The position numbers were made by a program, and so were the translations under genes. A stretch of 64,000 nucleotides of DNA. Origin: Marivibrio halodurans. GTDB lineage: Bacteria; Pseudomonadota; Alphaproteobacteria; UBA8366; Aestuariispiraceae. The DNA lies in NCBI RefSeq assembly GCF_017963645.1, contig NZ_JAGMWN010000004.1, positions 62,001 to 126,000 of the forward strand. Reading direction: 5' to 3'. Of the stretch, positions 18,914 to 55,186 are shown in pieces; the stretch's first letter is position 1, and each line of letters begins with the position of its first letter. The notes beneath the pieces are model-generated. The model saw only the letters and a program-made list of their open reading frames with translations. It searched no databases and was not told the origin of the DNA.

Positions 18914-19395
18914 TGGCGCGGCGCGGCGGCGATGACAGGACGCTCGACCTTTTGGCGTGGCAACCGCCGGAGCCGCAGCGCTACGCGGAGGAGCGCGTTC
19001 GCACCGCCACGCTCCGCGACCGGATTTCGCGCGCCGTCTCCGAGACATTGAAGGACTGCGAGCAAACACGCGCAGATGTCGCCAGGGCGATGGGCGAGTG
19101 GCTGGGTGAGGACGTCAGCGAGAACATGCTGAACGCCTATGCGAGCCAAGGCCGCGAGGAGCACACGATTCCCTACCTGCGCCTGCTGGCTCTGGTGCAG
19201 GTGACCGGCGACACGAGACTGCTGCAACTCGGTGCCGAGCTATTCGATACGACGGTGATCGAGAACCGGCTGAAGCCGTTCATTGAAATCGGCATGCGCT
19301 TCGACCGCCGCAATCGCGCGGTCGCGATCGCGCAGGAAGAGGACCGCGAGATCGACGTGGCCATCCGAACCATTCGGAAGGGGGCGCGCCAATGA
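18913..19395 (+). CDS. Prophage early hypothetical protein upstream of transposase
   Basis: A 160-residue protein from the ATG at 18913, which overlaps the ParB-like stop. The central part (LRDRISRAVSETLKDCEQTRADVARAMGEWLGEDVSENMLNAYAS) looks like a helix-turn-helix of the XRE kind, then RLLALVQVTGDTRLLQLGAELF. It directly precedes and overlaps the transposase gene. A DNA-binding accessory or regulatory role is plausible; the family is not recognised with certainty. Confidence 0.75.
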   Translation: MARRGGDDRTLDLLAWQPPEPQRYAEERVRTATLRDRISRAVSETLKDCEQTRADVARAMGEWLGEDVSENMLNAYASQGREEHTIPYLRLLALVQVTGDTRLLQLGAELFDTTVIENRLKPFIEIGMRFDRRNRAVAIAQEEDREIDVAIRTIRKGARQ

Positions 19396-21428
19396 CTGTC
19401 GGGCGCGAGGTGAACGGGGCGTATGAACTGATCGAGTGGTGGACGACCGCCGACCTCGCGAGCTTGTCGCTTGAGGGATTACCACAATCTCAGCGCGGCG
19501 TCCTGGCTCTTGCCAAGAAGCACTGCTGGCAGGGACGCCGTACCCACTCGGGCAACTCGCTCGCGCGCAGGCGCGCCGGCCGAGGCGGCGGCTGGGAGTA
19601 CCACTACAGCCTACTCCCGTTGGAAGCGCAGCAGGACCTGCTCCACCGCTACTCCCATGAACGACTGGCGGCCGAGGCACGACTCCGGCCCGCGCCGGCC
19701 GATACGCCGCGCCGGAATCCCTTGTGGGAGATTTTCGAGCGGTTGGGTGGCAACGCCCAAGACACCGCCAAATGGCGGCTCGCCGTCCTGAACGAGGTCG
19801 AGGACCTCACGCGTGGCGGTATGAACAAGAACGGCGCGGTCCATATGGTCTCCCGCCATTGGAAGCAGCAAGGCAAGAGGATCAGCGCCCGAACCCTTTG
19901 GAACTGGTTCGATCTGGTCGCGGGGCTCGAACGCTCCGATTGGTTGCCGGCGCTGGCGCCTCGTCATGTCGGTCGAACGAAGACCGCGCAATGCTCTCAG
20001 GAGGCCTGGGATTGGTATAAAGGACACTACCTGACGCGCAAGAAACCGACCCACGCGGACACATACAATCGGCTGAAGAAGATCGCGGACGCGAAAGGGT
20101 GGACGATCCCGACCGCGCGAACATTGGTCCGGCGGATGGATTCCGAGGTCGAGGAGATCACTCAGATCTATTGCCGCAAGGGTGCCGAGGCAGCGGCCAG
20201 GCGGATGCCGACACAGCGGCGCGACGCCACGGTGTTCGGCGCGGGCGAGGCGGTCAATGGCGACGGCCTCAAATTCGACCGGCTATGGGTGCGCTTCACC
20301 GACGGCGAGATCATCAATACGGCGACCGCTTGGTTCTATCAGGACGTCCGTACCCGCCGCATCCTGGCGTGGCGGCTGGATAAGACCGAGAACACGGATC
20401 TCTTTCGGCTGGCCACATACGACCTGACCGGCGTTTGCGCGCCGGCCCATGTCTATATCGACAACACGACCGTCGCCGCCAACAAGCTGATGACCGCCGG
20501 GGCGAAGGGCCGGAAACGGTTCAAGGACGGCCCGGAGGATGGGCTCGGCCTGCTGTTGATGCTCGGCATGGACCCGCACTTCACCAATCCGGACGAGGAG
20601 ACCGGCAACCCCGGCGCCAAGCCGATCGAGCGTGCGTTCGGCATTGGCGGTCTGCACGAGATGGTCGCGACAAACCCGGCACTGACGGACCGGGGGTATA
20701 GCAAGGCAACCGCGATCTCGTCAGACGAGCTGCGCGCGGTGATCGCCCATGAGGTCGAGCGGCATAACGCGAAGACGGGGCGGCGGACGCAAGCGTGCGG
20801 CGGTGTTCTTAGCTTCGACCAAGCATGGGAAGCCGCGATCGGGGATGAGCCCGTCCGCGTCCTGTCCGATCGCCAGCGTCGCCTGCTGCTGCTGTCGCGC
20901 GAGGTCGCGCGCGCCGACGGCCGAGACGGGGCGATCACCCTCGAGGCGGGCCAGGGTCCTCATGGCCGCAATCGATATTGGTGCGAGCATCTGACGCAAT
21001 GGGCGGGTCGCAAGGTCGCGGTCCATTACGACCCCGAGGATTTGCGCTCGGACGTCCATATCTACTCGCTGGATGGCCGCTATCTCTTCGCGGCGGAGTC
21101 GCTTCCCACCGCCGGCTTCAACGACACGAAGTCCGGTCGCGAGTGGCGCAAATTCAAGAGCCGCATGATGAAGGCCGAGAAGGCCAAGGCCGACGCCGAG
21201 CAGCGCATGGACGCCTTGGTGCGGGCATCGATTTACGCGGACGCCACGAACCAACCGATCGCCGAAGCCCCCAAGAAAAAGCGGCAGACCCGTCCGGTCG
21301 TCGTCGCCGGACATTTTCAGCACGTGCCGGATCCGGCGAGCGACGCCGGGTCCCGTGACGACGAGGACGACGATGCGCGGGTGCTCAATTTCGTGAAGGG
21401 CGTCGCGAAGATCGCGGTGGGCGACTAG
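19392..21428 (+). CDS. Mu-type DDE transposase (MuA homologue)
   Basis: A 678-residue transposase. The N-terminus (YELIEWWTTADLASLSLEG, then ARRRAGRGGGWEYHYSLLP) is the winged-helix end-binding domain seen in MuA. The RNase H-like core has Asp291 in NGDGLK, Asp357 in YIDNTT and Glu413 in PIERAFG; spacings of 66 and 56 residues are essentially those of MuA. A C-terminal beta-barrel region (DVHIYSLDGRYLFAAE) follows. It should cut the TG/CA ends and join them to target DNA during lytic replication and lysogenic insertion. Its sites are presumably the TGCAGT repeats at both ends. It overlaps the gene before it and is followed by two hairpins before the MuB homologue. Confidence 0.95.
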   Translation: MTVGREVNGAYELIEWWTTADLASLSLEGLPQSQRGVLALAKKHCWQGRRTHSGNSLARRRAGRGGGWEYHYSLLPLEAQQDLLHRYSHERLAAEARLRPAPADTPRRNPLWEIFERLGGNAQDTAKWRLAVLNEVEDLTRGGMNKNGAVHMVSRHWKQQGKRISARTLWNWFDLVAGLERSDWLPALAPRHVGRTKTAQCSQEAWDWYKGHYLTRKKPTHADTYNRLKKIADAKGWTIPTARTLVRRMDSEVEEITQIYCRKGAEAAARRMPTQRRDATVFGAGEAVNGDGLKFDRLWVRFTDGEIINTATAWFYQDVRTRRILAWRLDKTENTDLFRLATYDLTGVCAPAHVYIDNTTVAANKLMTAGAKGRKRFKDGPEDGLGLLLMLGMDPHFTNPDEETGNPGAKPIERAFGIGGLHEMVATNPALTDRGYSKATAISSDELRAVIAHEVERHNAKTGRRTQACGGVLSFDQAWEAAIGDEPVRVLSDRQRRLLLLSREVARADGRDGAITLEAGQGPHGRNRYWCEHLTQWAGRKVAVHYDPEDLRSDVHIYSLDGRYLFAAESLPTAGFNDTKSGREWRKFKSRMMKAEKAKADAEQRMDALVRASIYADATNQPIAEAPKKKRQTRPVVVAGHFQHVPDPASDAGSRDDEDDDARVLNFVKGVAKIAVGD

Positions 21429-21515: not shown

Positions 21516-22475
21516 ATGAACGAGCAGGTTAAGGAAACCGGCGAGGTCGATGTTGGTTCGATCCGCCGGCAGCTGAACGAGATCAAGGCGGCCGAGGGGC
21601 TGTCCTGGCCCGACATCGAGCGCACGAGCGGCGTCAAGCGCGGCACGCTCTCGACCTTCGCGACCGACAAGTACGCCGGTGACAACGAGCGGGTGGCTCG
21701 CGAGGTCGGTCGCTGGATCAACTCGCGCAGGGCGTCGGCCACGGTGACGGCGACGCTGCCGGACGTGCCGTCCTTCCGCCCGACGCCGAGCGCCAACGAA
21801 GTCCTGGCCCTTTTGCGCTACGCGCATGTTGCGCAGGACCTCTGCATTGCGGTCGGCGTTCCGGGCGTCGGCAAAACAAGCGCCATCGACCAGTATGTCG
21901 CGACGACGCCGAACGTCTGGAAGCTGACGGTCTCGCCCAGCGTGAAGTCGGTTTACGGCTTGCTGGTCAAGATGTGCGAGGTGATGCGTGTCAGCGAGAA
22001 GAACGCGGCCCTGCTGAGCCAGCGTTTGGAATCCTACCTGCAGGACAAGGAAGGTCTCCTGGTCGTCGATGAGGCGCAGCACGCGACGATGGAGATCCTG
22101 GAAGAACTGCGATCCTTTAGCGATTCCGCCGGTGTTGGGCTCGTGCTCAGCGGCAATCACGAAATCCTCAGGAAGCTCTCGGGCAGCTCGGGCCGTGGGC
22201 GGTACGCCCAGCTGGTCAGTCGAATCGGCGGGCGTGTTGTCATCAACAAGCTGCGTAAGGCCGACATCGAGGCAATCGCGGACGCGTGGAATGTGACCGA
22301 TCCCCAGGAGCGCGGTTTCCTGCACCGTATCGGCGGCCGGCCGGGCGCTCTGCGGAACATTACCAAGACGATGCGTCTCGCCGGCTTGCTGGCGCAGGGC
22401 GCGGAAGAGCCCCGGGCTATCGGTCACATACAGCAAGCCTGGCGCCAGCTGGCCGGCCTCGACGAGACATCGTGA
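21516..22475 (+). CDS. MuB-like AAA+ ATPase, target-DNA binding
   Basis: A 319-residue ATPase. The first 70 residues are a helix-turn-helix (GLSWPDIERTSGVKRGTLSTF) as in MuB. Walker A is GVPGVGKT at residues 114-121 and Walker B is LLVVDEAQ with Asp185. SGNHE is a likely sensor I. The C-terminus includes RIGGRPGALRNITKTM. MuB forms ATP-dependent filaments on target DNA, stimulates the transposase and gives target immunity. A GGAGG ribosome site precedes the ATG. It works with the transposase gene just upstream. Confidence 0.93.
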   Translation: MNEQVKETGEVDVGSIRRQLNEIKAAEGLSWPDIERTSGVKRGTLSTFATDKYAGDNERVAREVGRWINSRRASATVTATLPDVPSFRPTPSANEVLALLRYAHVAQDLCIAVGVPGVGKTSAIDQYVATTPNVWKLTVSPSVKSVYGLLVKMCEVMRVSEKNAALLSQRLESYLQDKEGLLVVDEAQHATMEILEELRSFSDSAGVGLVLSGNHEILRKLSGSSGRGRYAQLVSRIGGRVVINKLRKADIEAIADAWNVTDPQERGFLHRIGGRPGALRNITKTMRLAGLLAQGAEEPRAIGHIQQAWRQLAGLDETS

Positions 22476-32646: not shown

Positions 32647-34125
32647 ATGGGCAATGCGAAGATAATCCCCGCCGATCCCGGCGGGATTTTCCTTCCCTAC
32701 CAGGGGCGGTGGATCAAGGACGACAGCCGTCTGAAGCTGATGGAAAAGGGCCGCCAGATCGGCCTCTCCTGGTCGACGGCCTATGCCGCCGTCGAGCGCA
32801 CGGCCGCCCAGGGGCAACGGCACGATCAGTGGGTCAGCAGCCGCGACGACGTGCAGGCGCGGCTTTTCGTCGAGGACTGCAAGATGTGGGGTGGCGTCAT
32901 GGATCGCGCCGCCCGGGACCTGGGAGAGGTCGCGATCGACGAGGGCAGCAAGGCAACCGCCTACGCCCTGCAGTTCGCCAACGGTAAGCGGATCCACAGC
33001 ATGTCGTCGAACGCGGACGCCCAGGCCGGCAAGCGCGGCGGCCGCATCCTGGACGAGTTCGCGCTTCACCCGGACCCCAGGAAGCTCTGGGCGATCGCCT
33101 ATCCCGGCATCACCTGGGGCGGCAACATGGAGCTGATCTCGACCCATCGCGGTAGCCAGAACTTCTTCAATACGTTGGTGCGCGAAATAAAGGAGAAGGG
33201 CAATCCGAAGGGCATCAGCCTGCACACGGTGACGCTCGAGGACGCGCTCGACGACGGCTTCCTATACAAGCTCCAGCAATCGCTGTCGGCGGACGACGAA
33301 CGCCAAGCCATGGACGAAGCAGAATACTTCGAATTCGTCCGCGCCGGTTGCGCCGACGAGGAGAGCTTCCTACAGGAATATATGTGCAAGCCGGCCGACG
33401 ACGAGACGGCCTTCCTCGAGTATGACCTGATCGCCTCGGCCGAGTATTCCGCGACCGCCGACTGGCAGACGATCGAAGGCGGGCGCCTCTTCTGCGGCGT
33501 CGACATCGGCCGCAAGAAGGATCTGACCGTGCTCTGGGTCCTCGAGCTGCTCGGCGACGTTCTCTATACGCGCCACATCGAGCGGATGCAGAATATGCGG
33601 AAGTCGGACCAGGAGGCCGTTCTTTGGCCATGGTTCAAGAAGGCCGAGCGAGTGTGCATCGACTCCACTGGGCTCGGTATCGGGTGGTCGGACGACGCAC
33701 AGGACGCGTTCGGCGCGCACCGGGTCGAGGCGGTCACCTTCACGCCCGCCGTCAAGGAGCAGCTGGCCTATCCGATCCGATCCGCGATGGAGGATCGGCG
33801 CCTGCGTATGCCCTACGACCCCGTCGTGCGGGCGGATCTGCGCCAGGTTACCAAGCAGGTGACGGCCGCCGGCAACATCCGCTTCACGGCCGAACGCACG
33901 CCGGATGGTCATGCGGACCATTTTTGGGGCCTTGGCCTTGCCATTCACGCTGCTGGCGGAAAAGCGATGGAGTACGGCTATCATCCGGCTTCTGCGGCGG
34001 ATCGGCCTGATCGATGGGGCGAGCGGAGGGGCGTGGACTACTGGGCCGGAGGCGGCGGCCGCATGGCCGATACGCCCGACAACGCGTTCGAGGATATCGA
34101 ACACTTCGGGAAAGGAGCCTACTGA
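32647..34125 (+). CDS. Terminase large subunit (Mu gp28 type)
   Basis: A 492-residue packaging motor. The ATPase half has MEKGRQIGLSWSTAY (deviant Walker A) near residue 35 and RILDEFAL (Walker B-like) near 137. The nuclease half has FCGVDIGRKKDLTVLW, VCIDSTGLGIG and DGHADHFWGL, giving the acidic triad of the RNase H fold. It pumps DNA into the prohead and cuts by the headful mechanism, taking host DNA beyond the right end as in Mu. Its stop shares one base with the portal ATG. Confidence 0.93.
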   Translation: MGNAKIIPADPGGIFLPYQGRWIKDDSRLKLMEKGRQIGLSWSTAYAAVERTAAQGQRHDQWVSSRDDVQARLFVEDCKMWGGVMDRAARDLGEVAIDEGSKATAYALQFANGKRIHSMSSNADAQAGKRGGRILDEFALHPDPRKLWAIAYPGITWGGNMELISTHRGSQNFFNTLVREIKEKGNPKGISLHTVTLEDALDDGFLYKLQQSLSADDERQAMDEAEYFEFVRAGCADEESFLQEYMCKPADDETAFLEYDLIASAEYSATADWQTIEGGRLFCGVDIGRKKDLTVLWVLELLGDVLYTRHIERMQNMRKSDQEAVLWPWFKKAERVCIDSTGLGIGWSDDAQDAFGAHRVEAVTFTPAVKEQLAYPIRSAMEDRRLRMPYDPVVRADLRQVTKQVTAAGNIRFTAERTPDGHADHFWGLGLAIHAAGGKAMEYGYHPASAADRPDRWGERRGVDYWAGGGGRMADTPDNAFEDIEHFGKGAY

Positions 34126-35750
34126 TGGCGGATCGTGACACCGGCTTGGTCGATCAGTGGGGGCGGCCGATCCGGCGCGCCGACCTGACCCAGCAAATCG
34201 TCACCGCGACGGTGGGCGGCGTCCGGCAGACGATCTCGGAGCATCCGAGCGTCGGTCTGACGCCGGGCCGCCTAGCGAGGCTGTTGCGCGACGCGGAGGA
34301 GGATAATCCTTCCGGCTATCTGGCGCTTGCAGAGGAGATGGAGGAGAAGGATCTGCACTATCTCTCCGTCCTCGGCACACGCAAGCGCCAGGTGAGTCAG
34401 CTGCCCATCCGGATCGAGGCAGCGAGCGACGAGAAGGAGGACGTGATCAACGCCGAGATGGCGCAGGAGTTCGTCGGTCGCGACGTGCTGCAGGGCGAAA
34501 TCAAGGACATCCTGGATGCTGTTGGCAAGGGCTTCTCCGTCAACGAGCTGATCTGGGATATGTCCGAGCGCGATTGGCGACCGGTCGCGATGGAGTGGGT
34601 CGATCCGCGCTGGATTGTATTCGACACGCCCGACCGTCGGACGCCGCGCCTGCTGGGGGAGCATGGCCAGGGTGAGGATCTGCAGCCCTTCAAGTTTGTC
34701 TATCATATGTCGAAGTGCAAATCCGGCTTGCCGATACGCGGCGGCCTCGCGCGGGCGGCGGCTTGGACCTATCTGTTCAAGAACTTCGACATGAAGGGCT
34801 GGGTCGAGTTCGCGGAAATCTATGGGCAGCCGCTGCGCGTTGGCAAGTTCGGGTCGAATGCCTCGGAGGAGGATAAGCGCACGCTGCTTCGTGCGGTGGC
34901 GAACATCGGCCGCGACGCCGCCGCGATCATTCCCGATTCCATGCTGCTGGAATTTATCGAGGCTAAGGGGGGAACCAAGGGCGCGGAAGTATACGAGCGT
35001 CTGGCCGCCTTCCTGGATCAGCAAGTATCCAAGGCGGTTCTGGGGCAGACCGCGACGACGGATGCCATCGCCGGCGGGCACGCGGTCGGCAAGGAACACA
35101 ATGACGTTCGCGGTGATATCGAGCGTGCCGACGCCAACGAGCTTGAGGCCACGATCGGTCGCCAAATCATCCGGCCGTTGATCGATCTCAACCGGGGACC
35201 GCAGAAGCGCTATCCGTCGATCAAGATCGGCAATGACGAGGATGTCGATGTCGATGTCCTGTCCAAGGCGCTGCAGCGCTTGGTGCCGATGGGGCTGAAG
35301 GTCGGTCAAAACCAGGTGCGGGGGATGATGGGATTTAAAGAGCCAACGGCTGGCGATGATTTGTTGACTGCGCCGGCGTCCGCGACCGGCTATCCGGGGG
35401 CGACCGCGGGCGACGATCCGGATGACGAGGTTGCCCCACCGCGCGGTCGACCCGCCCGCAATGTCATCGCGCGCAACGCGGTCGAGGCGACGGCCGCCGA
35501 CCTGGCAGAGCGCCTGACAGGACTGGTCGATCAGGCGGCCGGCGAGCCCATGGACCGGATGATCGAGCAACTGCGCCGGGAGGTCGAGGAGGCCGACAGC
35601 CTGGACAGCTTGGCCGTCTCGCTGCTGGCTCTCTATCCGGAGATGGATCCGTCTGGCGTTGGGGCGGCACTGGAACGCGGGCTGACAGCAGCCTATCTCG
35701 CCGGTGCCGCCGAGGTGCCGAGCGAGGCCGGCGCCGGTGGGGAGGCGTGA
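34125..35750 (+). CDS. Portal protein (DUF935, Mu gp29)
   Basis: A 541-residue DUF935 portal protein. Recognisable blocks include LTPGRLARLLRDAEEDNPSGY, YLSVLGTRKRQVSQLPIRIE, MEWVDPRWIVFD, GWVEFAEIYGQPLRVGKF and QTATTDAIAGGHAVGKEH. It forms the dodecameric ring for DNA entry and exit. The C-terminal about 110 residues are acidic and helical, longer than the core family. The start at 34125 overlaps the terminase stop. Confidence 0.93.
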   Translation: MADRDTGLVDQWGRPIRRADLTQQIVTATVGGVRQTISEHPSVGLTPGRLARLLRDAEEDNPSGYLALAEEMEEKDLHYLSVLGTRKRQVSQLPIRIEAASDEKEDVINAEMAQEFVGRDVLQGEIKDILDAVGKGFSVNELIWDMSERDWRPVAMEWVDPRWIVFDTPDRRTPRLLGEHGQGEDLQPFKFVYHMSKCKSGLPIRGGLARAAAWTYLFKNFDMKGWVEFAEIYGQPLRVGKFGSNASEEDKRTLLRAVANIGRDAAAIIPDSMLLEFIEAKGGTKGAEVYERLAAFLDQQVSKAVLGQTATTDAIAGGHAVGKEHNDVRGDIERADANELEATIGRQIIRPLIDLNRGPQKRYPSIKIGNDEDVDVDVLSKALQRLVPMGLKVGQNQVRGMMGFKEPTAGDDLLTAPASATGYPGATAGDDPDDEVAPPRGRPARNVIARNAVEATAADLAERLTGLVDQAAGEPMDRMIEQLRREVEEADSLDSLAVSLLALYPEMDPSGVGAALERGLTAAYLAGAAEVPSEAGAGGEA

Positions 35751-35757
35751 AAATTCC

Positions 35758-37035
35758 ATGGCCGATGACGGCATAAGCCTGGACATCCTGCCGCGCGCCG
35801 TCCCGTTCAGCGAGGCGATCGACTATCTGCGCGGCAAGGTGGATGTCCCCAGCCGTGCCTGGACGGACCTGAAGGAGAAGGCCCACGCGCGCGCCTTCAC
35901 CGTCGCCGGCGCGACGACGATGGATCTGGTCTCTGACTTCCACGCGGCCGTGACGCGCGCGATCGAGGATGGCACCACACGGGAAGAGTTCCGCAAGGAC
36001 TTCGACCGGATCGTCGCGGCGCATGGCTGGAGCTACAACGGCGGTCGTGGTTGGCGCTCTGCGGTCATTTACAACACCAATTTGCGCATGGCGCAGTCGG
36101 CCGGACGTTGGGCTCAGGCGCGGCGGCTGGCGGATGCCGAGAACGCGCGCGGTCGTACGGTCTATATCCGATACTCGGCAGTGCTCGATTCCCGGACCCG
36201 GCCGCAGCATCGGGCCTGGCACGACATCATACTTCCGATAGACCATCCGTTCTGGCGAAGCCATACGCCGCCCAATGGCTGGAACTGCCGTTGCACGATT
36301 CAGATTTTGACGGAACGTGGATTGCGCCGGCGTGGACTGGTGCCGACGGCCGACGCGGACATTCCCTCGACGACGCCCGAACCGCGCCAGGTCAACACAC
36401 CTTACGGAACGGAGAACTGGCCGACGCCGACCGGCATCGACACCGGCTTCGGCTACAATCCAGGCGATGCTTGGCTGCGCGGTGGCACGCCCATGCCGTT
36501 GGACGAGCCGCTACCGCGCTTCGGTCCAGCGATTGTCGGCGATGCTCCGCCGCCGCCGGCCCCCCGACCGTTCCCGGAGAGCCGCATGTTGCCGGCGGAT
36601 TTAGACGAGGCCGAGTATGTCGATCGTTTCCTGAATGAGTTCGGCGGCGCACGCGACCACGCCGTCGGCTTTCGCGACGCCGGCGGGCATCTCATAGGGA
36701 TCAGCGACGATCTCTTCATCGATCGACGACAATCGTTACCGGGCGCGCCTGTTTATAAGGCGACCAAGTTCGGCCGGGCGCGCTATCTTCTGGCCTTGGC
36801 CGATGCGCTCAAGGCTCCTGACGAGATATGGCTTGATTGGGCCGAGGTGAACGGCGCGCCGTCATTACGACGGCGCTATATCCGACATCTTGAATTGCCG
36901 GGCCGGGCCGGTCTGGTCGCCGCGTTTGAATGGACCACGCAAGGCTGGGCTGGGCGGACGATCTTTGCCGCAGATACGACCAGCTACATTGAGGGCCAGC
37001 GGCAGGGCCAGCTTCTTTACCGACGCGAAGAGTGA
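35758..37035 (+). CDS. Minor head protein (Mu gpF) fused to a C-terminal nuclease-like domain
   Basis: A 425-residue fusion. Residues about 15-210 are the Mu F/SPP1 gp7-like head morphogenesis domain (FSEAIDYLRGKVDVPSRAWTDL, YNTNLRMAQSAGRWAQARRL, RPQHRAWHDIILPIDHPFW, NGWNCRCTIQ). A Pro-rich linker around residues 215-280 leads to a C-terminal domain (about 285-425: RDHAVGFRDAGGHLIGISDD, KFGRARYLLALADALKAPDEIWLDW, RRRYIRHLEL, YIEGQRQGQLLYRRE) resembling the phage-encoded Barnase/EndoU/ColicinE5/RelE-like (PBECR) nucleases seen at the ends of gpF proteins. The head part helps initiate capsid assembly; the nuclease-like part may enter the host with DNA. Catalytic residues are not assigned with certainty. 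Confidence 0.85.
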   Translation: MADDGISLDILPRAVPFSEAIDYLRGKVDVPSRAWTDLKEKAHARAFTVAGATTMDLVSDFHAAVTRAIEDGTTREEFRKDFDRIVAAHGWSYNGGRGWRSAVIYNTNLRMAQSAGRWAQARRLADAENARGRTVYIRYSAVLDSRTRPQHRAWHDIILPIDHPFWRSHTPPNGWNCRCTIQILTERGLRRRGLVPTADADIPSTTPEPRQVNTPYGTENWPTPTGIDTGFGYNPGDAWLRGGTPMPLDEPLPRFGPAIVGDAPPPPAPRPFPESRMLPADLDEAEYVDRFLNEFGGARDHAVGFRDAGGHLIGISDDLFIDRRQSLPGAPVYKATKFGRARYLLALADALKAPDEIWLDWAEVNGAPSLRRRYIRHLELPGRAGLVAAFEWTTQGWAGRTIFAADTTSYIEGQRQGQLLYRREE

Positions 37036-37538: not shown

Positions 37539-38624
37539 GTGGACACCGAAGTCGCCCTTCTTTCCCTGCAACTGCCCGCCGACGCGAACACCGCGCCGGA
37601 GTGGATACAGCTGCTGCCGGCCGGCCGGATTGTCGGTGCGGATGGGCGCGGTTGGACGGTCGACGATATGGACGCGCTCATCGCGCAATCCATGAAGGCC
37701 GGCCGCGATCTGCCGATCGACTATGACCATCAAATCGACCTCGCGGCCGTCGAAGGCGTAGGCGGGCGCGCGCCGGCGGCGGGCTGGATCTCCGAGCTGC
37801 ATAACCGCGACGGCGCACTGTGGGGACGTGTCAACTGGACCGATCGTGGCGGCCAGGCAATCGCGTCTCGCGAATATCGATACATCTCGCCCGCCTTCCT
37901 TTTCCGCGAGAAGGATGGCCGCGTGAGCCAGGTGCTGCGCGCCTCGCTCACCAACAATCCGAATTTGGACATGAAAGCGCTCAATGCGCGGCGCGACGAC
38001 AAGGGGAACAAGACGATGGATATCCTCGCTCAGCTGATCGCCGCCCTCGGTCTCGACGAGAATACCGACGAGGCCAAGGCACTTCAGCACGTCAGGGGTT
38101 TGGCCGCGAAGGCGGAGGAGGCGGCCGCGCTGGCCACCGTGCTGACCAAGCTCAACGGCGCTGCGGTCGATACCAAGGCGCTGATGGCGGCTGAGTCCGA
38201 GGCCAAGCGTGACGCTGCCGCAGACACGGTCGTCACCGCGCTGCAGGCGAAGCTGGCGCGCGGCAAGGATGGTGGCGATGGAAGCGACACAGTCACGGCG
38301 CTCAACAAGACTGTCATGGCGCTGCAGAGCGAGGTGAACGCCCTGCGCTCGCAGCAGGCCCGAGGCGTGGCCGAGGGTGCGGTCGACCATGCGATCAAGG
38401 CCGGGAAGTTGACGCCGGCCACGCGCGATTGGGCGCTCAACTACGCAGCCCAGGATCCGGCCGGCTTCGCGGCATTCGTGAAGGCGCAGCCGACGATCCT
38501 CAACGCCAGCAAGACCACCCAGACGATCGAACCGCCGAAGGGCGAGAGCGGCCTGACCGAGGATGAAATGGCCGTTTGCGCGGCCCTCGGGGTCACGCCG
38601 GAGGAGTTCAAGAAGCAGGCCTAA
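37539..38624 (+). CDS. Phage capsid protease with C-terminal scaffold (Mu gpI/Z type)
   Basis: A 361-residue protein from a GTG start. The N-terminal 150 residues are the Mu I-like prohead protease (IQLLPAGRIVGADGRGW, DLPIDYDHQID with the catalytic histidine, REYRYISPAFLF, then ASLTNNPNLDMKALNAR). The C-terminal part is Ala/Lys-rich and helical, a scaffold. An in-frame ATG at 38016 with AAGGGGAAC upstream would make the scaffold alone, as gene Z does within gene I in Mu. The protease clears scaffold during capsid maturation. Confidence 0.88.
   Translation: MDTEVALLSLQLPADANTAPEWIQLLPAGRIVGADGRGWTVDDMDALIAQSMKAGRDLPIDYDHQIDLAAVEGVGGRAPAAGWISELHNRDGALWGRVNWTDRGGQAIASREYRYISPAFLFREKDGRVSQVLRASLTNNPNLDMKALNARRDDKGNKTMDILAQLIAALGLDENTDEAKALQHVRGLAAKAEEAAALATVLTKLNGAAVDTKALMAAESEAKRDAAADTVVTALQAKLARGKDGGDGSDTVTALNKTVMALQSEVNALRSQQARGVAEGAVDHAIKAGKLTPATRDWALNYAAQDPAGFAAFVKAQPTILNASKTTQTIEPPKGESGLTEDEMAVCAALGVTPEEFKKQA
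38016..38624 (+). CDS. Possible nested scaffold product (Mu gpZ-like)
   Basis: An internal in-frame ATG at 38016, preceded by AAGGGGAAC, would give a 202-residue scaffold beginning MDILAQLIAALGLDENTDEA. The sequence is helical and Ala-rich with a C-terminal LTEDEMAVCAALGVTPEEFKKQ, typical of scaffold core-binding ends. Nested protease/scaffold genes are known in Mu and lambda; use of this start is inferred. Confidence 0.45.
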   Translation: MDILAQLIAALGLDENTDEAKALQHVRGLAAKAEEAAALATVLTKLNGAAVDTKALMAAESEAKRDAAADTVVTALQAKLARGKDGGDGSDTVTALNKTVMALQSEVNALRSQQARGVAEGAVDHAIKAGKLTPATRDWALNYAAQDPAGFAAFVKAQPTILNASKTTQTIEPPKGESGLTEDEMAVCAALGVTPEEFKKQA

Positions 38625-39177: not shown

Positions 39178-40071
39178 ATGCGGATCACCGCCCAAAATCT
39201 CGAAAGCCTGCGACGCGGGTTTAACGCGGCCTTCCAGCGTGGCCTCGGCCAAGCGGCGCCGCAGTCCGATATGGTGGCCACGACCGTGACATCCACCACG
39301 AGCGAGAATGTCTACGGCTGGCTCGGCAAGGTGCCGAGCGTGCGGGAGTGGATCGGCCCGCGCGTCGTTCAGAACATCGCCGAGCACGACTACGCGATCA
39401 AAAACAAGCCCTGGGAACTGACGATCGGCGTCGACAAGGATGACATCGAGGACGACAACCTCGGCATCTACCCGCCGCTGTTCGAAGAAATGGGTCGCTC
39501 CACTCAGGCGCACAAGGAGACGCTCGTCTTCGATCTTCTGAAAGCCGGCTTCACGACGCCGTGCTATGACGGACAGAACTACTTCGACACGGACCATCCG
39601 GTTCTCGATGCCGACGGCAACGAGATTTCGGTGGCCAATACCGACGGCGGATCCGGCTCGCCCTGGTTCCTGATCGACGACAGCCGCTCGCTGAAGCCGA
39701 TCATCTTTCAGAGCCGCCGAGCCTTCGAGTTCGTCGCCAAGGACCGTCCGACCGATGACAACGTCTTCGATCTGAAGGAATTCCGCTACGGCGTCGACGG
39801 GCGCAACAATGTCGGCTTCGGCTTCTGGCAGTTCGCCTGGGGCTCCAAGCAGGATCTGACAGCATCGACCTACGCGACCGGTCGTGCCGCCTTGTTGGGC
39901 ATGAAGGGCGATTACGGTCGCCCGCTCGGCATCATGCCGAAGGCGCTGGTCGTGGGGCCGTCGCTGGAAGGCAAGGCGAACGAGATCCTCAACGCCGAGC
40001 GTGACACCAGCGGCGCCACCAACGTCTGGAAGGGCACGGCCAAGGTCGTTGTCGTTCCCTGGCTGGCCTGA
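39178..40071 (+). CDS. Major head subunit (Mu gpT type)
   Basis: A 297-residue capsid protein of the Mu gpT family: MRITAQNLESLRRGFNAAFQ, ENVYGWLGKVPSVREWIGPR, DYAIKNKPWELTIGVDKDDIEDD, YDGQNYFDTDHP and GRPLGIMPKALVVGPSLEG. It builds the icosahedral shell with an HK97-like fold. Length and motifs are complete. It follows the decoration gene by 58 bp. Confidence 0.94.
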   Translation: MRITAQNLESLRRGFNAAFQRGLGQAAPQSDMVATTVTSTTSENVYGWLGKVPSVREWIGPRVVQNIAEHDYAIKNKPWELTIGVDKDDIEDDNLGIYPPLFEEMGRSTQAHKETLVFDLLKAGFTTPCYDGQNYFDTDHPVLDADGNEISVANTDGGSGSPWFLIDDSRSLKPIIFQSRRAFEFVAKDRPTDDNVFDLKEFRYGVDGRNNVGFGFWQFAWGSKQDLTASTYATGRAALLGMKGDYGRPLGIMPKALVVGPSLEGKANEILNAERDTSGATNVWKGTAKVVVVPWLA

Positions 40072-42377: not shown

Positions 42378-43304
42378 ATGGCGCTCAAGTTCCGCCGGCG
42401 GGCCGTGCTCGCCAAGATCGAGGACACCTACGGCACCGATGCCGAGCCGACCGGCGCGGCGAATGCGATCCAGCTCTCCGACGTGACGCTCAACCCGATG
42501 GAGGGCGAGGAGGTCGAGCGTAACCTGGTCGGTCGCTCGATCGGCGAGCAAGGCAAGCTGCTGGTGGGCCTGCACACGGTGCTCGAGGCCAGCGTCGAAC
42601 TGGCCGGCTCCGGTACCGCCGGCGACGCGCCGGCCTACGGCCCGTTGCTCCGGGCCTGCGGCTTCTCGGAGACGATCGACGCCGGCGTCGAGGTCGTCTA
42701 CGCGCCGGTGTCGGCCGACGAGGAGGCGGCGTCGATCTACTTCAACCTGGACGGCCAGCGGTTCGTCATGCTGGGGGCACGCGGCACGACCAGCTTCAGC
42801 GTCTCCGCGCGCGGCCTGCCGAGGATCAGCGTCCGCATGACCGGCCTTTGGTCCGAGCCGTCGGCCGGCGCCTATCCGACCGGCGACTTCTCCGCCTTCG
42901 TCAAGCCGTTGCCGGTCAGCAAGGCGAACACGACCTTCGCGCTGCACGGCTTCGCGGCCGTGATGCACAGCCTGGAGGTCGCGCAGAACAACGAGATCGC
43001 CCATCGCGACCTGGTCAACGAGGAGTCGGTGATCATCACCGATCGCGGCTTCGCCGGCACGGCCGTCATCGACATGCCGCCGTTGGCCACGAAGAACTTC
43101 TTCGCCATCGCGAAGTCCGAGGCGCTGGCCGCGCTGCAGCTGGTGCATGGCACGACCGGCGGCAATATCGCGCAGATCGACGCGGCGAAGGTGCAGATCG
43201 GCCGGCCGACCGTCGGCGAGGCCCAGGGCGTCGCCACCTTGAGCCTGCCGATTTGGCTCACGCCCGATGCCGGCGACGACGATTTCACGCTCACGGTCAA
43301 GTAA
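42378..43304 (+). CDS. Phage tail tube protein (siphovirus type)
   Basis: A 308-residue tail tube protein: FRRRAVLAKIEDTYGTDAEPTG, LVGRSIGEQGKLLVG, PAYGPLLRACGFSETID, TTFALHGFAAVMHSLEVAQNN and GVATLSLPIWLTPDAGDDD. It polymerises into the long non-contractile tail. There is no sheath gene, so the tail differs from that of Mu and matches B3/D3112-like phages. Confidence 0.87.
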   Translation: MALKFRRRAVLAKIEDTYGTDAEPTGAANAIQLSDVTLNPMEGEEVERNLVGRSIGEQGKLLVGLHTVLEASVELAGSGTAGDAPAYGPLLRACGFSETIDAGVEVVYAPVSADEEAASIYFNLDGQRFVMLGARGTTSFSVSARGLPRISVRMTGLWSEPSAGAYPTGDFSAFVKPLPVSKANTTFALHGFAAVMHSLEVAQNNEIAHRDLVNEESVIITDRGFAGTAVIDMPPLATKNFFAIAKSEALAALQLVHGTTGGNIAQIDAAKVQIGRPTVGEAQGVATLSLPIWLTPDAGDDDFTLTVK

Positions 43305-43315
43305 GGAGCCGATCC

Positions 43316-43678
43316 ATGGCCAAATTCATCCTCGCCGACGAGCCGACCTTCAAATGGCCCGTGGACATTCGGGTGCCGGGCACCAACGGCGCCTTCCAGA
43401 CCCTGCGCATCACCTGCCGCTTCAAGGTGTTGCCGCTCGATCATTTCGAGCGGAAGGCCGACCAGGAAGCCAGCGTCGACGACACCAACAAGGATTTCCT
43501 GCGCGACGCCTTGATCGGCTGGGACGAGGGGGACGTGTCCAACGAGGATGGCCAGCCGGTCCCCTTCAACGCGGACACCCGCGATCAGCTTCTGAATATC
43601 CCCTACGCGCTCCGCGACATCTTCGCGGCCTATCGCGAGGCGGTCTTTCGGGGCGAAAAGGCCAAGCGGGGAAACTGA
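43316..43678 (+). CDS. Tail assembly chaperone (gpG-like, upstream frame)
   Basis: A 120-residue protein between tube and tape-measure genes, the position of lambda gpG. FILADEPTFKWPVDIRVPG, ITCRFKVLPLDHFERKADQEA and LLNIPYALRDIFAAYREAVFRG are the main blocks. It should coat the tape measure protein during tail assembly. Its last two codons, GGA AAC, are part of a perfect slippery heptamer directly before the TGA stop, so a fraction of ribosomes should shift into the -1 frame and add the 127-residue extension that follows. Confidence 0.88.
   Translation: MAKFILADEPTFKWPVDIRVPGTNGAFQTLRITCRFKVLPLDHFERKADQEASVDDTNKDFLRDALIGWDEGDVSNEDGQPVPFNADTRDQLLNIPYALRDIFAAYREAVFRGEKAKRGN
43669..43675 (+). 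promoter_or_regulatory. Programmed -1 ribosomal frameshift site (G GGA AAC)
   Basis: The heptamer GGGAAAC fits X-XXY-YYZ in the chaperone frame and is followed at once by TGA. Three bases later a large GC-rich hairpin can form: GGCCGCCGCC from 43679 with GGCGGCGGGCC ending at 43730, with an inner CTTGG/CCAAG pair. This is the architecture of the lambda G-T frameshift. Confidence 0.82.
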
Positions 43679-44058
43679 GGGCCGCCGCCGGCGCTTGGGC
43701 GGGCGCGCGCCAAGGCGGTGGCGGCGGGCCGGACCTGGCGGTCGAGGATCTGATCGCGTTCGGCCTGGATCCGGTCGATGCCGAGCGGATCGGCCGGATC
43801 GAGGATGTCGACGACGACGCGGTCGAGATCTGGCCGGAACACGAGGCGGTGGTGCGGCTGTTCCTCGCGCTCTCGACGCAATGGCGCGTCGGCGGCATGG
43901 CGGGCGCGCCGCTCGGCATCGACTACGCGTCGATCGAGACGACCGGCCGGTTGCTCGGTATCGAGGTGACGCCGGCGGTGTTCGAGGATCTCCGGGTCAT
44001 GGAAGCGGAGGCACGTGACGTGCTGCTACGTCGCATCGAGGAGGCCGCGAACCGATGA
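43675..44058 (+). CDS. -1 frame extension of tail assembly chaperone (gpGT-like, DUF1799)
   Basis: A 127-residue segment read only after a -1 shift at 43669-43675; the joined product is about 247 residues from 43316. It has no plausible start of its own: the first in-frame ATG lies far inside the conserved region. After a Gly/Ala linker it matches DUF1799: PDLAVEDLIAFGLDPVDAERIG, VEIWPEHEAVVRLFLALSTQWRVGG, then GIDYASIETTGRLLGIE. In lambda the equivalent gpGT recruits the tail tube protein to the tape measure. It overlaps the tape-measure ATG by 4 bases. Confidence 0.82.
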   Translation: MRAAAGAWAGARQGGGGGPDLAVEDLIAFGLDPVDAERIGRIEDVDDDAVEIWPEHEAVVRLFLALSTQWRVGGMAGAPLGIDYASIETTGRLLGIEVTPAVFEDLRVMEAEARDVLLRRIEEAANR

Positions 44059-46889
44059 GCGATATCACCTTCGGCGTCACACTGCGCGCCGATGGCTCCG
44101 GCCTGGTCGGCGAGTTCCGGGCGACGGAAAAGGCCACGCGCGATCTGCGCGAGGCGATCGATACCGCCGGCGCCAGCGCCGAGCGGTCCGGCCGCGCGCT
44201 GGGCGAGCACGGCGCGCGCGCCAAACGCGCGGCGAAATCGCAGCGCCTGATGGCGTTCGAGAACCGTCGTGCCTCCTCGGCCGCGCGCGCCTTGACGAGT
44301 TCGCTGGCCGCGACCGACCAACGCCTCAACGAGATCAATGCCGCCGCCGAGCGCGCGGCCCGAGGCCTCGACCGCTTCGCCGACCGGAGCGCGCGCGCGG
44401 ACCGGAGCGCGCGGGCCGCAGCCGGCGGAATGATCGGTCTGCGCGGTGCGATTGCCGGCGTCGGCCTCGGCTTCGCCGCGCTCGAGGCGCGCCGGTTGAC
44501 CGGCGAGTTCTTCGGTTTGTCGGACGCCGCGACGCGCACGGCGAGCCAGTTGCGCAACGTGACGGAAAGCGAGGATCAACTGGCCGCGACCGAGGCGCGG
44601 CTGTTCGACCTCGCGCAGGATACACGAAACCAGTACGAGGCGACCGTGCAGCTCTACGCGCGGGTCGCGCGCTCGAGCGATCGCCTCGGCGTCAGCCAGC
44701 GGGAACTGTTCGAGATCACGGAGGCCACGAACAAGGCGATCCAGATCTCCGGCGCCAGCGCGACGGAGGCGCAGGCCGGTGTGATCCAGTTCGCCCAGGG
44801 GCTCGCGTCGGGCGAGCTACGCGGCGAGGAGCTGCGCAGCGTGATGGAGCAGCTTCCCCGCCTCGCCGAGGCGCTGGTCGACGGGATCGACGGCGTGGAC
44901 GATGTCGGCGGGCTGCGCGATCTGGCGGAGGCCGGGCAGCTCACCACGGACAAGGTGCTGCCGGCCTTGCTCGGCCAACTGCCGAAACTCCGCGAGGAGT
45001 TCGAGAACATCGAACGCACGAGCGAGCAGGCGGCGACGCAGCTGAACAACGAGTTCCTGCGCGCCGCCGGCATCATCGACGATGCAGAGGGGGCGACATC
45101 CAGCCTCGGCGACGCGCTGGACGAGATCCGCGAGACGGTCGCGCAGCCCGAATTCCGCGCGGGAATCGGAGAGCTGGTCGGTCTGATCACCGCCCTCGTC
45201 GAGGGCGGGGCGACGGCGGTCTCATGGCTGGGCGCGATCAACAAGGAGATCAGCGACCTGACGGACGGCGATCTTTCGCTGACCTCGTCCAGCCTTGATC
45301 TCTTCCGCATGGTTTTCGGCGAGACCGAGGGCGACGTCATTCGCGCGGTCGAGCGGATCCGCGCGCAGAAGGACATCTTGGCCGGGCTTGTCGAGAGCCG
45401 GGAGATGCTGGCGGCGCAAGGCGTCGAGCAGATGGTCATCGACGATCTGGACCGGCAGATCGCCGACAAGCGCGCGCAGGTGCGCGGCCTGATCGGCGAC
45501 CTGAAGGATATGGGTGGCACGCTGCCGAGCCAGGACTACTCGTTCGAGGATGATCGCGCCGCCCGCCGCCCGCCGTCGACGACGACCGTGCCGGCGCGTG
45601 CCGGCCGGTCGGCGATCAGTGACGATGTCCGCGAGGAGATCGACGCCATTCAGGACGACACGGCGGCGCTTCGCGCATTGACGCAGGCTTATGGCGAGGG
45701 CGAGGAGGCCGTGCGCCAGGCCGAGATCGCGCACGAGGCGATGAACATAATCCGCAAGGCAGGCACCGACCTCACGCGCGAGGAGGGTGAGGCGGTCGCG
45801 CGCGCGGCCTTCGCCTACGCGGAGGCGAAGGCCGCGCTCGACGATGCGAAGACATCCCATCGCGACCAGCAGCGCGCGGCGGAAGATGCAGCCGAAGCGC
45901 ACGAGGCCGCAATCGAGGAAATCCGCCGCGCGGGCTTGGCCCTCGCCGATCCCTACCGCCGCGCCGTGGCCGAGGCCGACGCCTGGCGAACGGAAGCGCT
46001 GGCCGGCCTCAATGAGGCGGAGAAGGGCTACAAGGCATTCGCCGACGAGGTCGAGCGAATCCACACGATGCAATTGGTCGAGGCGCAGAAGGTACATCTC
46101 GAGCATAGCCGCGAGTGGAGCGACGGCGTCGAACGCAGCCTGCGCGACTATTCGGACGAGGCATCCAACGCCGCTCTCAACGCCGAGCGCGTAACGACGA
46201 ACGCGCTATCCGGCATGGAGGACGCACTTGTCTCGTGGTCCCGCACGGGCAAACTCTCCGCGCGCGATATGGTCAATTCCATGTTGGCCGACTTGGCACG
46301 GCTGCAGGTCCGTCAGAACATCACCTCACCGCTGGCCAATGAGCTTTCCGGTGGGCTTGCATCAGCGCTGGGCGACGAGATCGGTTCGTGGTTCTCCGCC
46401 ACGCCGGCGGCATCGCCGACGGCGGTCGCGGGCGCGCAGAACGTCACGTCCTACAATACTCCCGTCACCGCGCCCGCCTATCACACCGGCGGCGATATCG
46501 GCCGGCCCGGTCAATTGACGCGACGCGTCGCCGCCTCCGCCTTTGTCGGCGCGCCGCGCTATCATACCGGCGGCGATATCGGCCTGGCGCCGGACGAGCG
46601 GGCGGTGATCGCGCGGACGGGAGAGAAGATCTTCACGCCCGAGCAGTTGACGAACGGCGAGCGGCTTTTCCGGACCGCGATGGCGGAGCGCCGCGCGCCG
46701 TCGGCGGGCACGATCGCGATCACCAACAATTACGACTTCCGGGGCGCCGACGCCGATGCCGTCCCGCGCCTGCAGGCGCTGGCCGAGACGATCCGGCGCA
46801 AGTCCGTCGAGGACGCGACCGCCGCAGTCCGCGGGCTGGCCCGGCAGGGCGGCCGCTACGCGGACGATCTCTCGCGGGGGATGCGATGA
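44055..46889 (+). CDS. Tail tape measure protein
   Basis: A 944-residue protein that sets tail length. The N-terminus is helical and Arg/Ala-rich (FGVTLRADGSGLVGEFRATEKATRDL). The conserved tape-measure domain spans about residues 140-330 (RLTGEFFGLSDAATRTASQLRN, ELFEITEATNKAIQISGASATEAQAGVIQFAQGLASGELRGEELRSVMEQLPRLA). A long coiled-coil middle follows, then a lambda-like C-terminal block (RTGKLSARDMVNSMLADLARLQVRQNI) and two copies of YHTGGDIG near residues 811 and 838, ending with IARTGEKIFTPEQL. At roughly 1.5 angstrom per residue the predicted tail is about 140 nm. Confidence 0.92.
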   Translation: MSDITFGVTLRADGSGLVGEFRATEKATRDLREAIDTAGASAERSGRALGEHGARAKRAAKSQRLMAFENRRASSAARALTSSLAATDQRLNEINAAAERAARGLDRFADRSARADRSARAAAGGMIGLRGAIAGVGLGFAALEARRLTGEFFGLSDAATRTASQLRNVTESEDQLAATEARLFDLAQDTRNQYEATVQLYARVARSSDRLGVSQRELFEITEATNKAIQISGASATEAQAGVIQFAQGLASGELRGEELRSVMEQLPRLAEALVDGIDGVDDVGGLRDLAEAGQLTTDKVLPALLGQLPKLREEFENIERTSEQAATQLNNEFLRAAGIIDDAEGATSSLGDALDEIRETVAQPEFRAGIGELVGLITALVEGGATAVSWLGAINKEISDLTDGDLSLTSSSLDLFRMVFGETEGDVIRAVERIRAQKDILAGLVESREMLAAQGVEQMVIDDLDRQIADKRAQVRGLIGDLKDMGGTLPSQDYSFEDDRAARRPPSTTTVPARAGRSAISDDVREEIDAIQDDTAALRALTQAYGEGEEAVRQAEIAHEAMNIIRKAGTDLTREEGEAVARAAFAYAEAKAALDDAKTSHRDQQRAAEDAAEAHEAAIEEIRRAGLALADPYRRAVAEADAWRTEALAGLNEAEKGYKAFADEVERIHTMQLVEAQKVHLEHSREWSDGVERSLRDYSDEASNAALNAERVTTNALSGMEDALVSWSRTGKLSARDMVNSMLADLARLQVRQNITSPLANELSGGLASALGDEIGSWFSATPAASPTAVAGAQNVTSYNTPVTAPAYHTGGDIGRPGQLTRRVAASAFVGAPRYHTGGDIGLAPDERAVIARTGEKIFTPEQLTNGERLFRTAMAERRAPSAGTIAITNNYDFRGADADAVPRLQALAETIRRKSVEDATAAVRGLARQGGRYADDLSRGMR

Positions 46890-54373: not shown

Positions 54374-55186
54374 ATGGAGTCGACCAATTTCGATGGTGCG
54401 GCCGTCGATCCCGTCCGTCCGCTGGCCGCGTGGGTCGGTGGTAAGCGTAATCTCGCCAAGCGTCTCACCGCCTTGATCGATGGGATGGAAGGCGTCGATA
54501 TCTACGCCGAACCGTTCGTGGGCATGGGAGGGATATTCCTGCGCCGCCGCCGCCGGCCGCGCGCGGAGGCGATCAACGACCTTAACCGCGACGTCGCCAC
54601 TCTCTTCAGGATCGTGCAGCGGCACTATCAGCCGTTCGTCGAGATGATCCGCTGGAAGCTCGCCACCCGATCCGACTTCGAGCGGCTGGTGCGGACGGAT
54701 CCGGAGACGCTGACCGACCTGGAGCGCGCCGCGCGCTTCCTCTATCTGGCGCGCACGAGCTTTGGCGGCCGTGTTGCCAGGCCCACCTTCGGCATATCGC
54801 CCTCGACGCCGTCGCGCTTCGACGTCACCAAGATCGTCCCCATGCTCGAGGACGTGCACGCACGGCTCGCCCCGGTGACGATCGAGTGCCTGCCCTATGC
54901 CGATTTCATTCGCCGCTACGACCGGCCGGGCACGCTCTTCTACCTCGACCCGCCCTATTGGGCGTGCGAGGGAGACTACGGCCCCGGCCTCTTCGAGCGC
55001 GCCGACTTCGAGCGCCTCGAGAGCCTTCTGAGAGGCCTCTCAGGGCGCTTTGTGATGTCGCTCAACGATGTGCCCGAGGTTCGCGAGATGTTCGGCGCGT
55101 ACCGGGTCGAGGCCGTGGAGACCACCTACTCGGCGCGGCACGGCGCGAGGAAGCCGGCGGGCGAGGTGATTATTCAAGGGCCTTGA
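54374..55186 (+). CDS. DNA adenine methylase (Dam / D12 class)
   Basis: A 270-residue SAM-dependent adenine-N6 methyltransferase. WVGGKRNLAKRL and EPFVGMGGIFLRR make the SAM site; LDPPYW at residues 191-196 is the catalytic motif IV; NDLNRDVATLFRIVQ and RTSFGGRVARPTF lie between. It should methylate adenine in a GATC-like site. Located at the right end among non-structural cargo, it may protect phage DNA from restriction or alter regulation, as Mu Mom does by other chemistry. It shows no restriction partner. Confidence 0.92.
   Translation: MESTNFDGAAVDPVRPLAAWVGGKRNLAKRLTALIDGMEGVDIYAEPFVGMGGIFLRRRRRPRAEAINDLNRDVATLFRIVQRHYQPFVEMIRWKLATRSDFERLVRTDPETLTDLERAARFLYLARTSFGGRVARPTFGISPSTPSRFDVTKIVPMLEDVHARLAPVTIECLPYADFIRRYDRPGTLFYLDPPYWACEGDYGPGLFERADFERLESLLRGLSGRFVMSLNDVPEVREMFGAYRVEAVETTYSARHGARKPAGEVIIQGP

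Follow-up and report, generated by a model that had tools for sequence, protein, structure and literature searches.

A -1 programmed ribosomal frameshift very probably generates a tail chaperone pair of the gpG/gpGT type in a Mu-like siphophage prophage of Marivibrio halodurans, as judged from the sequence of a 64,000-nucleotide stretch of its genome (hereafter the window). In the proposed mechanism, most ribosomes would terminate at the TGA at 43676 to give a 120-residue TAC_4 chaperone, and a minority, held by a hairpin at 43679-43730, would slip one base back, with tRNA-Gly re-pairing from GGA to GGG and tRNA-Asn from AAC to AAA. CUG would then be read in place of UGA, leading to a predicted 247-residue fusion that carries DUF1799 and has the junction ...KRGN-LRAAAGAW.... 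Observed here are the anatomy of the locus, the conservation of heptamer, frame and (mostly) stop position, and an average excess of 3′ structure; that slippage occurs, and at what rate, we infer. The roles of the two proteins at this locus are assigned by analogy with lambda, using the functions of the lambda G and T parts as given in PMC5009743: binding of the tape measure protein would fall to the G part and binding of the tail tube subunits to the T part, which would make the ratio of the two products important. The features of the locus and of the surrounding element are as follows.

19392-21428, forward strand: Mu-type transposase A (Pfam DDE_2, E 1.7e-43)
21516-22475, forward strand: MuB-like transposition protein (Pfam Phage-MuB_C, E 4.8e-27)
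34014-35750: Mu-like portal
37539-38624: protease
39178-40071: major head subunit gpT
42378-43304, forward strand: tail tube protein, upstream neighbour (Phage_tube_2, Pfam E 1.3e-11)
43316-43678, forward strand: tail assembly chaperone ORF (gpG-like), 120 aa, Phage_TAC_4 (PF08748, Pfam E 1.6e-6)
43669-43675, forward strand: slippery heptamer G_GGA_AAC in the gpG reading frame, in phase X_XXY_YYZ
43675-44058, forward strand: -1 frame extension (T part), 127 aa, DUF1799 (PF08809, Pfam E 3e-20)
43676-43678, forward strand: gpG stop codon TGA, immediately 3′ of the heptamer (intercodon position)
43679-43730, forward strand: predicted GC-rich hairpin from the minimum-energy fold, separated from the heptamer by 3 nt, with 6 nt to its main stem
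44055-46889, forward strand: tape measure protein, downstream neighbour (TMP_3, Pfam E 1.8e-52)

The chaperone ORF extends from the ATG at 43316-43318 to a 3′ end that reads CGG GGA AAC TGA (43667-43678), exactly as a preliminary description of this DNA had it, and passes the Pfam gathering cut-off for Phage_TAC_4 (28.8 bits against 21.1). That description placed the slippery heptamer on the stop codon; the heptamer and its phase are borne out, and it abuts the stop instead of lying on it. The -1 frame is open from the CTG at 43675-43677 to the TGA at 44056-44058, in agreement with the 127 residues and the DUF1799 match previously claimed for it, and scores 72.6 bits against a gathering score of 26. 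This frame is already open for 433 nt upstream of the G stop, and within those 433 nt no strict heptamer other than G_GGA_AAC occurs in the G phase. The gene order Phage_tube_2, TAC_4, DUF1799, TMP_3 thus holds the overlapping ORF pair of a gpG/gpGT locus, with a slippery sequence in the overlap and the downstream ORF in the -1 frame; the ATG of the tape measure gene at 44055 in turn overlaps the T stop codon (ATGA). The element around the locus is a Mu-like prophage, as shown by its Mu-type transposase A, and the assignment to a Mu-type element made earlier is upheld also by MuB, the Mu-like portal and gpT. Two further genes of the window attract attention: a Mu F-like head morphogenesis protein (35704-37035, forward strand) has a C-terminal PBECR2 domain of the barnase/EndoU/colicin/RelE-like nuclease group (E 2.8e-27), and a D12-class N6-adenine DNA methyltransferase (PF02086, E 4.3e-20) is encoded at 54374-55186 (forward strand), downstream of the tape measure gene.

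To place the heptamer against chance expectation, strict in-phase heptamers were counted across the whole window, where 119 occur in 63,101 ORF codons (0.19%). Among the 374 start-to-stop ORFs of at least 60 aa on both strands, only one, the chaperone ORF, ends in a strict heptamer. Past the junction, the first ATG, GTG or TTG in the -1 frame is a GTG at the 59th codon, 10 codons upstream of the QW motif and within residues 41-115, which make up the DUF1799 match; upstream, the start codons listed for this frame are limited to ATGs at 322 and 409 nt ahead of the G stop. A search of the window for a usable internal start of the -1 frame thus found none, which accords with the earlier statement that the downstream frame lacks one of its own, and the frameshift reading, against which an efficient internal start would have counted, stands.

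Relatives were gathered as TAC_4/DUF1799 loci by protein similarity or Pfam family, independently of the heptamer, from phage records, whole genomes and viral contigs. Whole-genome matches to the query P0001 were obtained in 2 of 14 in the family, 2 of 43 in the order and 12 of 385 in the class, and DUF1799 matches in 18 of 385 in the class and 30 of 398 in the phylum; the phylum-wide DUF1799 list comprises 39 places, of which 9 are outside the sample. From viral contigs the best 80 of at least 577 confirmed loci were taken, and from the 209 phage records with a DUF1799 match 11 were hand-picked for diversity, while one further phage-record search contributed two of its three records. P0001 had no relative in genome contigs and one weak relative in viral contigs (L011), which matched neither profile. 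The 158 loci gave 130 distinct junctions with both parts, grouped into 53 clusters at 70% T-protein identity, after exclusion of 19 duplicates, of seven loci without a DUF1799 match (L002, L003, L011, L023 and the lambda/HK97 controls L076-L078) and of L075 and L135, which have no TAC match. The HMM profiles were built from the same loci on which they were then run. Changes were counted on a protein tree made without the junction columns, and these counts are approximate, since few of its branches are well supported (16 of 50 inner branches, with 19 drawn open).

Relative to the chaperone, the DUF1799 frame is -1 in all 53 clusters, each of which has an in-phase strict XXXAAAZ heptamer in the overlap. 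Loss of the heptamer with retention of both frames, named in the preliminary description as an observation that would refute its reading, was therefore seen in none of them, and the congener G007 keeps G_GGA_AAC_TGA at 52% G and 55% T identity. The heptamer abuts the stop codon in 47 clusters (34 A_AAA_AAC, 12 G_GGA_AAC and one A_AAA_AAT), with TGA as the stop in 34, TAA in 10 and TAG in three; in the table of 130 junctions, 123 have this arrangement. In the remaining six clusters the stop is 9 (L074), 18 (L066), 21 (L038), 27 (L064), 54 (L048) or 96 nt (L032) away, and all six keep a strict heptamer. L154 likewise has an abutting heptamer, but its T frame starts no earlier than 119 nt past the stop, and the locus was therefore scored as none. 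Conservation of the T part starts at the junction, with Leu at position 1 in 28 of the 28 abutting sequences aligned (37 listed). The XXX triplet changed between AAA and GGG eight times on the tree, at least four of these changes being forced by well-supported branches; the type of abutting stop changed 11 times among abutting clusters and the abutting state five times. Through these changes both slipperiness and a stop were retained. Since three bases switch together while the site stays slippery, the pattern would be hard to explain unless slippage is under selection.

The same arrangement was found outside the clusters. In a later check, 11 of 11 viral loci fetched with the congener T protein after the rule had been seen were in the -1 relation with the heptamer at the stop, six of these (L321-L326) being near copies of one another, and six of six further named DUF1799 phages follow the same rule; the slippery site is hence conserved in relatives at a level of 53/53 clusters plus 11/11 later loci. 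Avoidance of a start codon was considered as a sufficient reason for C at the Z position and rejected, because the 13 abutting clusters with TAA or TAG could form no start and all are still AAC; the single AAT cluster abuts a TGA stop. The control sets are of limited value: the lambda set represents one lineage (80 of 80 with the stop at 15 nt), and among 80 near copies of the HK97-type control, 52 lack any strict heptamer in the 70 nt next to the stop, two have heptamers at 48 and 57 nt, and 26 were unscored as no start was found at the expected place. L066 has the rare A_AAA_AAG with a Lys slip codon and a lambda-like spacing to its stop.

A hairpin at 43679-43730, proposed in the preliminary description, is present in the minimum-energy fold of 43676-43745, at -49.8 kcal/mol and z -2.6, a stability matched by 3 of 200 shuffles; for the segment 43660-43735 the z is -1.9, matched by 9 of 200. 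Compared with synonymous recodings, the structure downstream of the heptamer in the window is only moderately more stable (z -1.5) because the region is very GC-rich. Across the 53 clusters, the 45 nt starting 5 nt past the heptamer have a mean z of -1.20 against synonymous shuffles, compared with -0.04 to -0.50 at ten other offsets, and 66-nt segments a mean z of -1.24 compared with -0.35 to -0.66 at control offsets. Only 21 of 53 clusters fall below -1.5 in the 45-nt segment. Negative values are found at several of the control offsets too, with p as low as 9e-6 for 66 nt, so that a general bias of real versus recoded genes accounts for part of the structure signal; at the heptamer offset the signal is about twice that of the strongest control. 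The 40-nt folding minimum is located at +3 to +6 nt from the heptamer, with a mean of -17.5 kcal/mol versus -7.6 to -11.3 kcal/mol elsewhere (offsets before the heptamer and from +40 onward), part of this depth being accounted for by a higher G+C content (72% versus 56-64%). A predicted hairpin of at least 8 bp with a spacer of 2-12 is found in 35 of 53 clusters, versus 14 to 28 of 53 at six control offsets. Taken with the hairpin of the window, the family signal points to a predicted 3′ stem-loop a few nucleotides after the heptamer. A dnaX-type Shine-Dalgarno-like stimulator was rejected (-4.1 versus -4.0 kcal/mol in synonymous shuffles, 47 clusters, p 0.71). These 47 clusters show an anti-SD peak 4-8 nt upstream of the heptamer, where RcapMu has AGGAGG, which we did not count as a stimulator since the peptide sequence explains its strength; in the window, anti-SD pairing is weaker than in its own shuffles (-3.2 versus -5.3).

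Production of DUF1799 as a separate protein, either through termination-reinitiation at the CTG that overlaps the stop (AACTGA) or from an internal start, would also account for two adjacent frames, and the overlap of CTG with TGA does resemble ATGA couplings. RcapMu, RcWaterboi and VarioGold are annotated as two genes, and a TAC gene pair can in principle work unfused. Of the 45 clusters in which the QW motif was found, 28 carry an ATG, GTG or TTG in the T frame at a distance of over 30 codons upstream of the motif; an ATG occurs there in 19 clusters, and in seven such a start comes with an SD-like 4-mer. However, the overlapping triplet is CTA, which is no start, in the 13 of 47 abutting clusters that stop at TAA or TAG, and reinitiation has no need of the heptamer that all 53 clusters possess. 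The window offers no ATG, GTG or TTG between the junction and that 59th codon, which lies within the domain, and the T part is conserved from the invariant Leu at its first position in the aligned abutting sequences, although L066, where the stop is set apart, has GAA instead of a Leu codon after the slip. We consider separate synthesis very unlikely.

Stuttering of RNA polymerase on a run of identical bases could similarly yield mRNAs with a changed frame, and the A_AAA_AAC relatives do contain stretches of 6 to 8 A; transcriptional realignment has been linked to A runs of more than 7 (PMC3711429). Such transcriptional slippage is hardly credible at this site, where the longest run is 4 (CGGGGAAAC), given that 12 of 53 clusters use G_GGA_AAC and that the phase of the heptamer relative to the codons is fixed, as tandem tRNA slippage demands. 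A decayed or mis-sequenced single gene with a true indel would look like one gene split over two frames, yet the same frame relation and site recur in 53 of 53 clusters and in isolated phages, and the congener copy has both frames intact at 52-55% identity, which makes this explanation extremely improbable as well. Programmed -1 frameshifting is the reading that we retain.

Within the frameshift reading, we infer a braking role for the abutting stop: the release factor would compete with slippage and so contribute to a low share of gpGT. In line with such a role, 47 of 53 clusters retain the stop there even though its type varies. Common descent and compact coding, T starting with the codon that follows, are other reasons that could explain the abutting stop. 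More broadly, the TAC_4-DUF1799 family might use a stop-coupled -1 frameshift in which XXXAAAC lies against the stop and the product ratio reflects a race between release factor and re-pairing with the stop codon in the A site, a proposal that we advance tentatively and regard as somewhat doubtful. If it were true, the amount of -1 product would depend on release factor level, in a -1 parallel to the prfB switch. PMC5009743 describes A_AAA_AAG as far more shift-prone in E. coli than A_AAA_AAC, which most relatives use, and this counts against the frameshift reading itself. In favour of that reading, 6% and 7% frameshifting were obtained with two reporters in E. coli for a GeneTack cluster of HK97-protein-like tail chaperones, which may or may not include DUF1799 members (PMC3711429). 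The literature searched yielded no bacterial slippage figure for G_GGA_AAC.

The closest named relative is RcapMu (genes 49/50, JN190960), which like RcWaterboi (genes 47/48) is a Mu-like siphophage with the order tail tube, TAC, DUF1799 and tape measure seen in the window and an identical G_GGA_AAC_TGA. Their G and T proteins are only about 30-35% identical to those of the window and their DUF1799 is annotated as a separate ORF, although the RcapMu record already notes a 'potential -1 frameshift' at this site. In HK639 (L008, NC_016158) the DUF1799 frame at 1471-1776 has no annotated CDS, though A_AAA_AAC_TGA and the domain are present. The frameshift reading supplies a correct interpretation of a gene that annotation splits or, as in HK639, misses, and XXXAAAC usually directly before the stop, with T from the next codon, provides a precise signature for annotating tail chaperone fusions. 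Xu and colleagues (2004) reportedly surveyed tail-chaperone frameshifts. According to the account of a frameshift predictor (PMC10885494), heptamer and stop are on average 26 nt apart in its SEA-PHAGES training set and 36 nt apart in the Xu set, which makes a zero distance uncommon for tail chaperones overall. We found no paper stating a family-wide heptamer-stop rule in the literature searched, whose coverage excludes most subscription journals. Frameshifts with a stop right after the shift codons, allowing the release factor to compete with slippage, are described in PMC4373837; these systems are in genes other than those for tail chaperones, with the -1 cases in eukaryotic hosts, and a test of the role of the stop in a phage tail chaperone was not found in the literature searched. 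The rule also opens the role of a stop intercodon to direct testing in a naturally occurring bacterial -1 frameshift.

Published predictions place GGGAAAC-TGA directly before the stop in Burkholderia phage KL1 (gp18/gp19; PMC3483164) and AAAAAAC-TAA in Acinetobacter phage Loki (gp12/gp13; PMC5313236). Both chaperone pairs are annotated as joined CDS and, unlike the window, both phages have an extra gene before the tape measure gene. Their T parts (L330 and L331) gave no match, even at E 1, to the DUF1799 profile made here. KL1 and Loki share the heptamer-at-stop layout with Leu at the next codon. This layout may therefore be wider than DUF1799. The preliminary description saw the lambda G-T arrangement built on a different heptamer. 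The arrangement holds, lambda gpG/gpGT likewise depending on a -1 frameshift in a chaperone gene that immediately precedes the tape measure gene. The different heptamer is not novel: G_GGA_AAC is one base from the G_GGA_AAG of lambda, and earlier work has described it in phage tail chaperones and in those of a haloarchaeal virus (PMC3483164, PMC3556154, PMC5009743). The two heptamers of KL1 and Loki also occur in phiCbK-type phages and Colossus (PMC3556154). In lambda the stop is 15 nt downstream (80 of 80 near-identical lambda-type loci), and the lambda stretch (L077) does not match the T profile made here. The locus thus appears to be a well-supported ordinary case of a known mechanism, extending a well-known phage strategy, with lambda G/GT, KL1, Loki and the RcapMu note as precedents, to this Mu-like prophage; what is new, on a modest scale, is that heptamer and stop codon are coupled across the family, a pattern suggestive of competition between release factors and slippage.
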